A DNA stretch of 64,000 nt, taken from the NCBI GenBank assembly GCA_030435675.1, contig CM059622.1:9300001-9364000 (forward strand). Reading direction: 5' to 3'. The translations under genes were made by a program, and so were the position numbers. This DNA comes from Steinernema hermaphroditum (Eukaryota; Nematoda; Chromadorea; Rhabditida; Steinernematidae). Below the pieces are notes generated by a model. That model saw nothing but the letters and a program-made list of their open reading frames with translations. It was not told the origin of the DNA and searched no databases. Shown here piece after piece: positions 33,950 to 37,160 of this stretch. Within the stretch, counting starts at the first letter, position 1. Every line of letters begins with the position of its first letter.

Positions 33950-34237
33950 TTACGACTTTACGACTTTATTTCACGAATCAAAGGCATTATGCCCTGCGCG
34001 GCACCGAAAATAGACAAACAGTGGATGTCTGGCAGACGACTTCATCCCTGGTGCGGCGTAGATGTCGAACCGGTCGTAGACGGTGCACTTCACGGGGCAT
34101 CTGGGAATCGGCAAATCTTCAGCTGAGGCAGCGGAATATCGTTTGCGGTACAGCGGGCGCTTCTGAGCTTGCATCTGATGGTACGTGGTCCTGATTGCGT
34201 CTTCGCAGTTCCTCAGAGCATCGGCGACCTTTGGGAT
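33950..34237 (+). repeat. Dispersed repeat family R1, copy 3, left half
   Basis: Runs up to the 5' LTR; the right half resumes at 37003. It matches the minus strand of copy 2 closely (for example ggcagcggaatatcgtttgc). Confidence 0.8.
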
Positions 34238-34542
34238 TGTTGCGTGCTGACCACACGCATTGATTCTCTTGTTCAATGTTCGTCTGCGTCTCACCGCGAT
34301 TGGTCACCGTAGTTGTCTGCGTGTTGTCTATGCTGTCTAGGCTAGCGACCGCTCTCTGTCTCTTCCATTCATATCGCGCCAGCCTTATGTTTGTGTTGAC
34401 TAGCGCGTTCATGTGCTTACGTGTTCGCGCCTTTATTTGTTACGTGTTATTTGTACATAAAGGTTTAATTACCCAAGTTTGAGGTCTCCCACCAGGTAGA
34501 GCTCCTAGCTCCCTCAAACTATTGTTACGACAAGACGTAACA
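34238..34542 (+). repeat. 5' LTR
   Basis: Begins tgttgcgtgctgacc, ends cgacaagacgtaaca. The SL1 match is at 34462-34483, preceded by ttgtacataaa (a weak TATA- or poly(A)-like motif) and followed directly by GT. The right end holds a hairpin gttacg-acaaga-cgtaac. Confidence 0.93.
34462..34520 (+). promoter_or_regulatory. SL1 leader sequence with SL-RNA-like hairpin in the 5' LTR
   Basis: Bases 34462-34483 equal the 22-nt SL1 leader of nematodes (GGTTTAATTACCC...TTTGAG). The next bases are GT, as at the SL RNA donor. The end of SL1 (agtttgagg, 34476-34484) can pair with cctcaaact (34512-34520) as a 9-bp stem, with a smaller gagct/agctc stem inside. In true SL RNA the leader also folds back over its donor. 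No clear Sm site follows, so this is not an SL RNA gene. Confidence 0.85.
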
Positions 34543-34760
34543 AATTGGCGATCAGGATCTTCGAATTCTCGCGCTGAAGCCGGACGCCCCCGCCGCTGAA
34601 GCCCCGCTGCCACCGCCAATCGCTAACAAATTGGCGATCAGGAATTTCCGGACCCGCGCTTCCGCCTCCTGCCACCCGCCTGTTCGACGTCAACGCTCCC
34701 GACAGGCCGCGCCAAGTCGCCAACTCAACAAATTGGTGACCAGGACTTTTCACCGTTGCC
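34543..34760 (+). repeat. Primer-binding region with three similar modules
   Basis: Just after the 5' LTR, aacaaattggcgatcagga occurs, then again at about 34624, and as aacaaattggtgaccagga at 34727. The first TGG at the LTR edge is the likely primer-binding site; the tRNA cannot be named. Spacers are proline/cysteine-codon-like GC-rich tracts. Confidence 0.6.
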
Positions 34761-34930
34761 GAACCATCTGCACGGACGCCCCCGCTGCAGAATAAGCAAC
34801 AAGCCGCGATCCAAGAAACCAGCCGGTGTTAATTGCTCTGTGAAGAAGCTGTCTTGGTGACGATTCAAGAGCCTAAATCCTTGACAGTACAGACAATCTA
34901 ACCCAAGAGCCCTGGTGATCGCTCAACACG

Positions 34931-36520
34931 ATGGATCGCCTTTTCAATTTGCCGATTTTCGACCCCGATGTCGACGACTTCTCATTGTGGTTCCAAGCAG
35001 CCAAGAACCGCCTTATGCTCTTGCCCGCCGACACGCCGGAAAAGCAGAAAGCAGCGCTGCTCGTCTCCATGCTCAACATGACAGCATTTGGCCAACTCTG
35101 CACTCGCCTGCAAGCCAAGAACAAGGAACTCGATGAATGCTCGCTCGAAGACGTCAAGAACGAACTCACCGCCGCGTTTGAGAAAAAGAAGTTGCTGTTC
35201 ACTTACCGACGCGAATGCTGGTCCATGCAACAACCAGCGTACTCATCGCTCGATGACTGGTACAAGTCCGTCATGAAGGCCGTGCAACAGTTCGACTTCA
35301 AATCGTTCTCCGAAAAAGAATTGGCAGTGCTGATCTACGCCCAAGGTCTGCACAATCCGCAGCTGAAGGAACACCTTCTCCTGAAACTGGCCGCTCGCAA
35401 GCCAGATGAAGAAACTGACTTGGAAACCGTGCACCAAGAAGCACTCACGAAGACCCAAGTCCGCAGCGAAGTCAAGTCTCGACAAGACATCTTAGCCGTA
35501 AGAAGCCAGCATCGCCGCTCTACTCCTGCTCAGGAAGAACACTCTGCTTCTGAAGACGAAGACTATCCAACTCGTCGCCGTTCTCAGCAACGCCGTGTAC
35601 CACGCACGCCATGCTATGGTTGTGGAGAAATGCACTACCGCGACGACTGTCCGTTCTCCAATAAGACGTGCCCTGCATGCAACAAGATAGGACACAAGAC
35701 TGGATTCTGCAACTTCGCCAAGCCGAAGAAAGCTCCATTGGAAGTCAACCTCGTCTCTGCTCCCGCTTCAAGCACCATGAACTTCACCCGCATCTCAGTA
35801 CGCCGTGCTCACGACGCTCAATCAGCTGAGAAGACCATCAACATCAAGGTCGACACCGGTTCTGAAGTAACGATCATCAGCCATCGTACATGGTCCGCTC
35901 TCAAGAAGCCTCGCCTCAACCATGCGGCTCAAGCTATCGTCACCGCTGCCAAGCAGCCTCTCAAGCTTTTGGGATGGTTCAACGCTCAAGTTCACTGGAA
36001 AGGAACTTCTAGGACAACGAAGCTTTTCGTCTCTCCGTCCAACCTCCAGATCCTTGGCTATCCTACGTTCGAAGCCCTTGGAATGAACGCCAAGCCGTTC
36101 AAGGAAGTCTGCTGCTCAGCCAAGACCGATTCCTCCAAGCCGAAGACCGAACACCCACCTCGCAGCTCTGCAAGAACCAAGCCAAGATCGTCCGCTTCAA
36201 CTACCACAGCTGTTGCCCAACGGCCTGCTGCTTCCCGCGTTGCTCAACGTTCAACGAAGCCTCATTCGTTGGGGAAGGGAACCGTCAACGTGCTTTCGCT
36301 TGACGTTCAATTGAAGCCCACAAGCGTCTCCAGCTCCAAGAAGCCGAAGAAGACGCCACGCTCCATGTCTGGCTCTCTCTCTCTGCCGTCCGGAAGACCG
36401 CCGCGCTCTCCCGTGATGCCGCTCCACGCCAGCCGACCAGCTCTGGTCCCGACCAATCCGCTCCTGCGCTCAACAACGCCGAGGACAAGACCATCGAAGC
36501 TCTCGACCGCTCCAAGATGA
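34931..36520 (+). CDS. Gag-protease polyprotein of the LTR element
   Basis: 529 codons. Residues 1-190 form a helical Gag (DRLFNLPIFDPDVDDFSLWF onward). Two zinc knuckles follow (CYGCGEMHYRDDC and CPACNKIGHKTGFC, about residues 231-263). Next is a retroviral-type aspartic protease with the active-site loop VDTGSEVTIIS (about 311) and the LGYPTFEALG segment (about 375). After a Lys/Ser/Pro-rich linker the frame ends at TGA. Another frame, open to 36645, ends LAREELFWKRRAEAM and HWDVIRH, which looks like a separate polyprotein C-terminus joined out of frame by deletion. Gypsy-like Gag is my best guess for the clade. Confidence 0.85.
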   Translation: MDRLFNLPIFDPDVDDFSLWFQAAKNRLMLLPADTPEKQKAALLVSMLNMTAFGQLCTRLQAKNKELDECSLEDVKNELTAAFEKKKLLFTYRRECWSMQQPAYSSLDDWYKSVMKAVQQFDFKSFSEKELAVLIYAQGLHNPQLKEHLLLKLAARKPDEETDLETVHQEALTKTQVRSEVKSRQDILAVRSQHRRSTPAQEEHSASEDEDYPTRRRSQQRRVPRTPCYGCGEMHYRDDCPFSNKTCPACNKIGHKTGFCNFAKPKKAPLEVNLVSAPASSTMNFTRISVRRAHDAQSAEKTINIKVDTGSEVTIISHRTWSALKKPRLNHAAQAIVTAAKQPLKLLGWFNAQVHWKGTSRTTKLFVSPSNLQILGYPTFEALGMNAKPFKEVCCSAKTDSSKPKTEHPPRSSARTKPRSSASTTTAVAQRPAASRVAQRSTKPHSLGKGTVNVLSLDVQLKPTSVSSSKKPKKTPRSMSGSLSLPSGRPPRSPVMPLHASRPALVPTNPLLRSTTPRTRPSKLSTAPR

Positions 36521-36697
36521 CAAGCTCTGGATTAATCGCTCTCAGCCCCGAAGCTCTCGCCCGCGAAGAACTCTTCTGGAAACGCCGAGCCGAAGCGATG
36601 CGACACGCCAAGCTTCCAGAACACTGGGATGTCATCCGCCATTGATATGCATACTTATTCTTGTATTCGTGTCTTTCTTTCCTCTTGCGTTGGGAGG

Positions 36698-37002
36698 TGT
36701 TGCGTGCTGACCACACGCATTGATTCTCTTGTTCAATGTTCGTCTGCGTCTCACCGCGATTGGTCACCGTAGTTGTCTGCGTGTTGTCTATGCTGTCTAG
36801 GCTAGCGACCGCTCTCTGTCTCTTCCATTCATATCGCGCCAGCCTTATGTTTGTGTTGACTAGCGCGTTCATGTGCTTACGTGTTCGCGCCTTTATTTGT
36901 TACGTGTTATTTGTACATAAAGGTTTAATTACCCAAGTTTGAGGTCTCCCACCAGGTAGAGCTCCTAGCTCCCTCAAACTATTGTTACGACAAGACGTAA
37001 CA
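36698..37002 (+). repeat. 3' LTR
   Basis: Identical to the 5' LTR over 305 bp by direct reading, including the SL1 match at 36922-36943. Confidence 0.93.
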
Positions 37003-37160
37003 GGGATGACTTCTCACGCATCGTCGGGCATTGGATTCCTGGCGTCGGACATCTTGTTGTCAGCAGCGGTTGGACTACGGCTTCCGGGTGTCCCAATTCC
37101 CTCTGGAAGCCGGAATAGTCACAGCTGCCATAGGGTTTGCCATCTGACCGACCAGACACT
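37003..37160 (+). repeat. Dispersed repeat family R1, copy 3, right half
   Basis: Continues the repeat interrupted by the LTR element, starting with the duplicated gggat and running gacttctcacgcatcg, as in copy 2. Confidence 0.8.

Follow-up and report, generated by a model that had tools for sequence, protein, structure and literature searches.

Probable use of the spliced leader SL1 as the terminal repeat of LTR retrotransposons in the nematode Steinernema hermaphroditum

Cassandra, Helenus and Ajax are terminal-repeat retrotransposons in miniature (TRIMs) that carry 5S- or tRNA-derived sequence in their long terminal repeats (LTRs), and the RNA of Cassandra starts and ends in the 5S part, which gives an 18-bp duplication at the RNA ends (available portion of PMC10886601). 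For Cer1, a Ty3/gypsy element of Caenorhabditis elegans, the spliced 2.4-kb mRNA was detected in a form that carries the spliced leader SL1 and in one that lacks it, and the 8-kb RNA did not undergo trans-splicing at the site concerned (available portion of PMC3315495). Here we analyze a window of 64,000 nucleotides from Steinernema hermaphroditum (assembly GCA_030435675.1, contig CM059622.1, positions 9,300,001 to 9,364,000 of the forward strand), in which a 2,765-bp LTR retrotransposon contains the 22-nt SL1 in both of its LTRs. The terminal repeat (R) of such elements is normally a private, self-encoded sequence; in the elements described here it is most likely SL1 itself.

The likeness to Cassandra, Helenus and Ajax lies in the host small-RNA sequence present in both LTRs. 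Those elements are short TRIMs whose insert is an RNA polymerase III promoter (available portion of PMC10886601), whereas here we find only the 22-nt exon of the spliced leader (SL) RNA, in the LTRs of protein-coding gypsy and BEL elements and behind a poly(A)-type hexamer. The leader stands alone and the window has no Rfam match at the gathering score, which places the element outside the Cassandra-type TRIMp3 class. Cer1 likewise belongs to Ty3/gypsy, comes from a nematode and has an RNA to which SL1 is trans-spliced, but the available portion of PMC3315495 describes no SL1 in its LTR. Dinoflagellate retrogenes with a relict spliced leader are also DNA copies of trans-spliced RNA; those are copies of host mRNAs, whereas here SL1 lies in both LTRs of transposable elements at many insertions (available portion of PMC6050394). 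The leader is internal to both LTRs and not at the 5' end of an intronless gene copy, unlike in an SL retrogene. Among the titles and opening lines of abstracts listed by searches of the open-licence PubMed Central literature, no report of a spliced leader inside an LTR was found, so that its absence in print is not established.

Both sites in the window match SL1 (GGTTTAATTACCCAAGTTTGAG) at 22 of 22 positions, starting at base 225 of each LTR, with no further match in the window at up to 3 mismatches and none in 100 shuffles of it. A first-pass annotation had claimed an exact leader in two identical LTRs, followed by GT and beyond chance, and this holds: the LTRs are 100% identical and GTCTCC directly follows SL1 at both sites. 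The sites are not SL RNA genes, since they have GTCTCC instead of a GTAAAC-type donor, and no Rfam hit reached the gathering score in the window.

That annotation concerned one element, and a survey of the window's own genome (a 90.6-Mb assembly, contigs C1 to C5) widens the scope to two superfamilies. Exact SL1 occurs in 265 copies (177 and 88 by strand), against 0 for a reversed-pattern control; together with the shuffles, these counts rule out chance or artefact as the origin of SL1 in the LTRs. SL1 followed by GYAAACAT, the form of SL RNA genes, was met at 169 places at up to 2 mismatches, and most copies not preceded by AAA are of that form; nine contexts that were printed resemble such genes and have an Sm-like AATTTTG. 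AAA directly followed by exact SL1 was found at 101 sites. We read 102 distinct SL1 contexts, eight of them SL RNA-like. Flank words divide the other 94 into 18 clusters. These contexts are of LTR form, with paired LTRs seen for some while others are solo or were not traced to a partner, and nearly all share one layout: an A-rich hexamer, then SL1, then mostly G or A followed by T. Capture of an SL RNA gene or promoter at the DNA level is disfavoured, because the block common to the LTR contexts ends at base 22, the splice junction. A search with one pattern gave 0 matches to other spliced leaders in the SL1 slot (reversed-pattern control 5), within the reach of that pattern, and SL1 had 0 matches in prokaryote and 0 in viral contigs. 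SL RNA-type copies form a head-to-tail array at C4:13375647-13385810 with a spacing of roughly 365-470 bp, and at C2:15.3-16.3 Mb many of them are inverted pairs about 200-290 bp apart. One copy of the window LTR (C2:15556920-15560222) lies about 1 kb from SL1 RNA genes.

The first footprint of R is the hexamer. We scored 97 contexts, leaving two truncated copies (L095 and L028) out of this count and of the rank-correlation, chimaera-pair and window-discordance counts below, and keeping them in the stem and hairpin counts. NATAAA lies within 9 nt before SL1 in 90 of the 97 (TATAAA 58, CATAAA 22, AATAAA 9, GATAAA 1), and in 88 ATAAA ends 0-1 nt before SL1, as it does in 23 of 27 printed U3 (unique 3' region) types counted by eye. 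Three of the seven remaining contexts have AGTAAA and one has AATACA; the NATAAA variants, AGTAAA and AATACA are all known as poly(A) signals. Elsewhere in the same contexts there are 4 matches to NATAAA in the 13,774 nt at positions -150 to -9 and 0 in the 5,335 nt at positions +1 to +55. When 12 poly(A)-signal-like hexamers were tested, the window LTR contained CATAAA alone. Because the 59-nt U5 (unique 5' region) has no such signal, cleavage is expected within SL1 or immediately downstream. The 5' end of the RNA can then lie no further downstream than SL1, and R would be SL1.

The second footprint is recombination at SL1. If SL1 is R, strong-stop DNA (U5 plus SL1) can land on the SL1 of another element, and U3/U5 chimaeras should result. 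Taking as pairs LTRs with U5 at least 92% identical and U3 below 60% (shuffled U3 gave a mean of 0.49 and a maximum of 0.62), we found 136 pairs from 31 loci, not independent of one another, that share U5 and differ in U3, and in these identity stops to the left of SL1 at 3 nt (117 pairs), 5 nt (18) or 29 nt (1). Among 22 pairs with the same U3 and different U5, 20 stop 0-2 nt to the right of SL1; L118, a copy with a doubled leader, takes part in 13 of the 22, and 7 of the other 9 stop there. Neighbouring windows across SL1 are discordant, with U5 alike and U3 unlike, in 97 of 295 pairs, compared with 40/347, 2/207, 0/207, 0/203, 0/203 and 20/243 inside U3 and 15/295 and 10/425 inside U5. LTRs of BEL type with the CCCGCGTGG motif show chimaeras of the same kind (L054/L113, L031/L091 and L075/L081). 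The proposal of the first-pass annotation that SL1 belongs to R and serves first-strand transfer thus gains two footprints, the hexamer and these breakpoints. SL1 is most likely R, with the RNA ends and the transfer placed at SL1 by sequence comparison.

The same break is seen between the window element and an autonomous relative, L072, which has SL1 in both LTRs, a GATTC target-site duplication (TSD) and a pol in the order protease, reverse transcriptase (RT), RNase H, integrase (Pfam RT, RNase H, H2C2 and rve, scanned as two pieces). SL1, U5 and the primer-binding site (PBS) are 97% identical over 100 nt starting 3 nt before SL1, 540 nt of the gag open reading frame (ORF) are 74% identical at the DNA level, and the polypurine tract (PPT) region at 36672-36722 is 92% identical, while the middle of U3 has no match in L072. 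A swap of U5 at SL1 would explain this pattern better than constraint alone. Non-autonomous LTR elements that keep only gag are known as the TR-GAG or BARE2 type. The window element resembles them in its intact gag/protease-like ORF, its PBS and PPT, its lack of a polymerase and the presence of an autonomous relative, and differs in that its mid-U3 is unrelated to that of L072 and the common part begins 3 nt before SL1.

Conservation of SL1 was proposed as a check, and the outcome depends on the level at which it is viewed. Searching with the LTR irrespective of SL1 yielded 41 places for the window family; from the best 30 of the 41, 27 near-complete LTRs were aligned, of which 21 have exact SL1, five have at least one change and one (L021) has SL1 deleted. 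Substitutions in this sample amount to 15/584 in SL1, 112/4390 in distal U3, 60/1597 in the 60 nt before SL1 and 91/1584 in the 59 nt after it. Resident copies of the family therefore let SL1 decay like its surroundings, with no sign of selection on them. This agrees in part with the outcome that the first-pass annotation had named as refuting its proposal. Shared variants affect 1 of 22 sites in SL1 among 25 LTRs (L021, and L003, which lies at the same place as the query, were left out), while the count per 22 sites is 0-6 in U3, and 6 and 5 in U5; this is a weak, suggestive sign. Conservation is between lineages: SL1 is exact beside 27 U3 types and 20 U5 types too different to cluster, types that were collected by exact SL1, and the gypsy SL1 elements L072 and L131 are separated in RT-RNase H by branch lengths of about 1.1 changes per column. 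A survey of integrase hits provides a check on this, because it was not conditioned on exact SL1.

In that survey, which covered 23 of 56 gypsy integrase hits, 9 of the 10 hits at least 51% identical to L034 have an exact same-strand SL1 within 6 kb; the 10 include pieces of one element, so that about 7 of 8 elements have SL1. Among the weaker hits SL1 was near 1 of 13, 5.4 kb off and beside a different LTR. With BEL integrase (23 of 60 hits examined), SL1 was found by the 100% hit and two 37% hits and not by the 96, 65 and 62% hits. Of the 18 clusters, four were tied to Ty3/gypsy (clusters 0, 2, 4 and 6, through Pfam matches in L072, L073, L033 and L034, and RNase H between cluster-4 LTRs on C3) and two to BEL/Pao (clusters 1 and 12, through DUF1759 in L052 and DUF5641 in L041). 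A17 peptidase lies between SL1 pairs of the L052/L041 type at C1:17737149-17746840 and C1:4909924-4917585; we take A17, DUF1759 and DUF5641 to be BEL/Pao markers. Of 30 gypsy RNase H hits, 7 lie within 12 kb of an exact SL1 on the same strand; for BEL A17 the figure is 4 of 53. These are lower bounds, counted from 100 of the 101 AAA sites and nine others on C1 and C2 (eight in the integrase check), with degenerate SL1 and non-AAA sites on C3-C5 outside the count; they reject the idea that SL1 is universal in the LTRs of gypsy and BEL. In a tree of 22 RT-RNase H rows, of which L126 and L127 are partly out of frame, seven SL1 gypsy rows group with L128, which is without SL1, and the group is supported (99/97). 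SL1 is thus used by certain lineages of each superfamily. Some BEL/Pao hits belong to open frames of great length (1,908-2,786 amino acids at C1:1752740, C2:12500367 and C3:2858629), with no listed exact SL1 within 12 kb.

If R is SL1, the 5' copy could be encoded or added by trans-splicing, and doubled leaders bear on this. ATAAA followed by SL1 holds three AGs, ending at SL1 bases 1, 16 and 22. A new SL1 spliced after the third would restore the LTR unchanged, after the first it would give SL1 followed by SL1 bases 2-22, and after the second SL1 followed by TTTGAG. We found the longer product at one place (C5:2675017, L118), where the second copy has one change; the other match of that search is an ordinary U5. 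The shorter product occurs at three places in three different LTR contexts (C1:3021740, L035; C1:4041405, L144; C4:2493561, L145), and a search for the exact pattern met no other offset over 1 to 9 nt. L145 is also without 14 nt (GTGAATTATCCAAG) of its relatives, so that it too was joined after an AG, and both L144 and L145 have a first SL1 whose 5' end departs from the leader. The four doubled leaders joined after an AG would fit new trans-splicing, as a hint only. They point no further than this towards the earlier suggestion that the element RNA was trans-spliced, and slippage stays as an alternative.

In the explanation that we favour with reasonable confidence, SL1 is R and its 5' copy comes from the host. 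Transcription would start upstream, the pre-RNA would be trans-spliced at the AG ending the encoded SL1, and the element RNA would thus begin with SL1 and be polyadenylated inside or just after it, under the abutting NATAAA. The 22-nt leader would then provide the terminal redundancy for the jump of minus-strand strong-stop DNA, and each cycle of reverse transcription would rewrite the SL1 of the LTR from host SL1 RNA. The exactness and place of SL1, the hexamer and the chimaera breakpoints are direct observations; trans-splicing as opposed to initiation at SL1 is the least certain part of this explanation. Several observations weigh against it. TATAAA, the commonest hexamer, may instead represent a TATA box. 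The doubled products could also arise by slippage at the same AG microhomology: among enumerated duplications 8 of 860 give the two forms found, and the proportion is 8 of 29 when only those leaving a complete SL1 with its own tail are counted. As a nematode acceptor, the TTTGAG that ends SL1 is poor. Around many pol hits of BEL and gypsy no exact SL1 is listed, and collecting contexts by exact SL1 favours exactness. The chimaera and discordance pairs are not independent, U3 alike with U5 unlike is rare across SL1 (8/243), and a Mantel-type rank correlation of window similarities, computed over 50 gypsy-type contexts, does not fall noticeably at SL1 (0.57 across it, 0.58 beside it inside U3, 0.80 in U5).

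The closest rival also makes SL1 the R region but has it encoded, through a single capture from a trans-spliced RNA, with transcription starting at the first G and perhaps with SL1 as initiator. SL1 DNA is reported to serve as a promoter element and initiator in the SL RNA genes of Ascaris, although our literature search did not find this described. An encoded R is expected to leave the same hexamer and chimaera footprints, an initiator role would keep SL1 exact, and the near-single clade of gypsy SL1 elements (7 of 8 rows) fits one capture followed by descent. Yet an encoded R could drift, while exact SL1 occurs in both gypsy and BEL; a TATA-like box around -30 common to the 27 U3 types was not seen by eye, and these and the nine SL RNA gene contexts have no evident upstream element in common. 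Nor does it predict doubled leaders joined at AG, though slippage could produce them, and we regard it as rather unlikely. Alternatively, SL1 could be part of U3, downstream of a TATA box and upstream of the start site, as a promoter spacer or factor site with R downstream. With the usual TATA-to-start spacing of 29-31 nt, transcription would begin immediately 3' of SL1, at the conserved G/A, and both the 58 TATAAA contexts and the G directly 3' of SL1 in 80% of the 20 U5 types agree with this. The empty +1 to +55 region, however, offers no signal to end a downstream R in the families with a 59-nt U5; AGTAAA (three) and AATACA (one), among the seven contexts without NATAAA, are poly(A) variants and not TATA boxes; 18 of the 22 different-U5 chimaeras (6 of 9 without L118) diverge from the third base after SL1, which leaves no room for R; and an exact 22-nt exon is an odd spacer. 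This arrangement is improbable. Least probable is a functionless relic of a single ancestral capture, kept because the insertions are young. The neutral-looking decay in resident copies is what it predicts, but exact SL1 persists beside the 27 U3 and 20 U5 types (collected by exact SL1), across the divergence of the gypsy elements and in the integrase survey, which was not conditioned on SL1.

The coordinates of the window element are collected in Table 1. Its TG...CA LTRs, 5-bp TSD, PBS-like and PPT-like sites are all as in Ty3/gypsy elements. Two CX2CX4HX4C knuckles and a DTG protease-like motif were read by eye in the 529-aa ORF, where the Pfam scan gave DUF7083 alone, below cut-off; no RT or integrase match was found by Pfam in this sole ORF. 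The element is a recent, non-autonomous LTR insertion related to Ty3/gypsy. A 9-bp stem between the 3' part of SL1 and downstream LTR sequence (AGUUUGAGG/CCUCAAACU), which had been compared with stem-loop I of the SL RNA, does fold in the window LTR (z -3.82). The likeness turns out to be family-specific: the complement is an exact 9 bp in 24 of 99 SL1-LTR contexts and 8 or 9 bp in 34, and 42 have no complement of at least 5 bp. The stem is confined to one LTR family and stands outside the common design.

Table 1. Coordinates of the SL1-carrying element and its parts, given as window positions
Feature	Positions	Strand	Basis
Left TSD, GGGAT	34233..34237	.	read from sequence
5' LTR, 305 bp, TG...CA	34238..34542	+	300 nt at 100%; ends by eye
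U3	34238..34461	+	placed by taking SL1 as R
CATAAA directly 5' of SL1	34456..34461	+	12-hexamer test
Exact SL1 22-mer, proposed R	34462..34483	+	pattern match
U5, 59 nt, common to other U3 types	34484..34542	+	predicted
U5-terminal hairpin TGTTACG-6 nt-CGTAACA	34523..34542	+	folding and context survey
PBS-like TGGCGATCAGGA	34546..34557	+	read from sequence; also in L072
529-aa ORF, gag-like and protease-like	34931..36520	+	Pfam scan, motifs by eye
GGGAGG, PPT candidate	36692..36697	+	read from sequence
3' LTR, identical to 5' LTR	36698..37002	+	repeat search
CATAAA 5' of 3' SL1, proposed poly(A) signal of element RNA	36916..36921	+	hexamer test
Exact SL1 22-mer, proposed 3' R	36922..36943	+	pattern match
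Right TSD, GGGAT	37003..37007	.	read from sequence

The hairpin at the end of U5 has a 7-bp stem in both LTRs (34523-34542 and 36983-37002), in which TGTTACG/CGTAACA is replaced by TGTTGTG/CACAACA in relatives, two compensatory pairs; 44 of 99 contexts fit the search pattern and 43 of those 44 pair perfectly. The LTR end with the PBS-like motif (TAACAAATTGGCGATCAGGA) occurs in three copies before gag (34538-34562, 34624-34648 and 34726-34750; similarity 100, 92 and 76%, at intervals of 86 and 102 nt). U3 carries a 24-bp imperfect tandem repeat with ACGTGTT (34403-34448 and 36863-36908), and CGTGT-type motifs upstream of SL1 recur by eye in gypsy and BEL LTRs.

The 101 sites with AAA before SL1 could mislead programs that call SL RNA genes from genomic SL1. 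A broader picture, which we offer tentatively and hold short of probable, is that two superfamilies gave up a self-encoded R: host SL RNA would supply the 5' repeat in each cycle, the LTR copy would serve as the landing site, strong-stop DNA from one element would be able to prime on another through the shared R, so that families trade U5s, and SL1, rewritten from the host template, could not drift. If R is borrowed from host trans-splicing, the replication of these retroelements would depend directly on SL RNA. SL trans-splicing would carry an added cost, one that to our knowledge has not been considered before, and different families could exchange parts of their LTRs through the R that they have in common.

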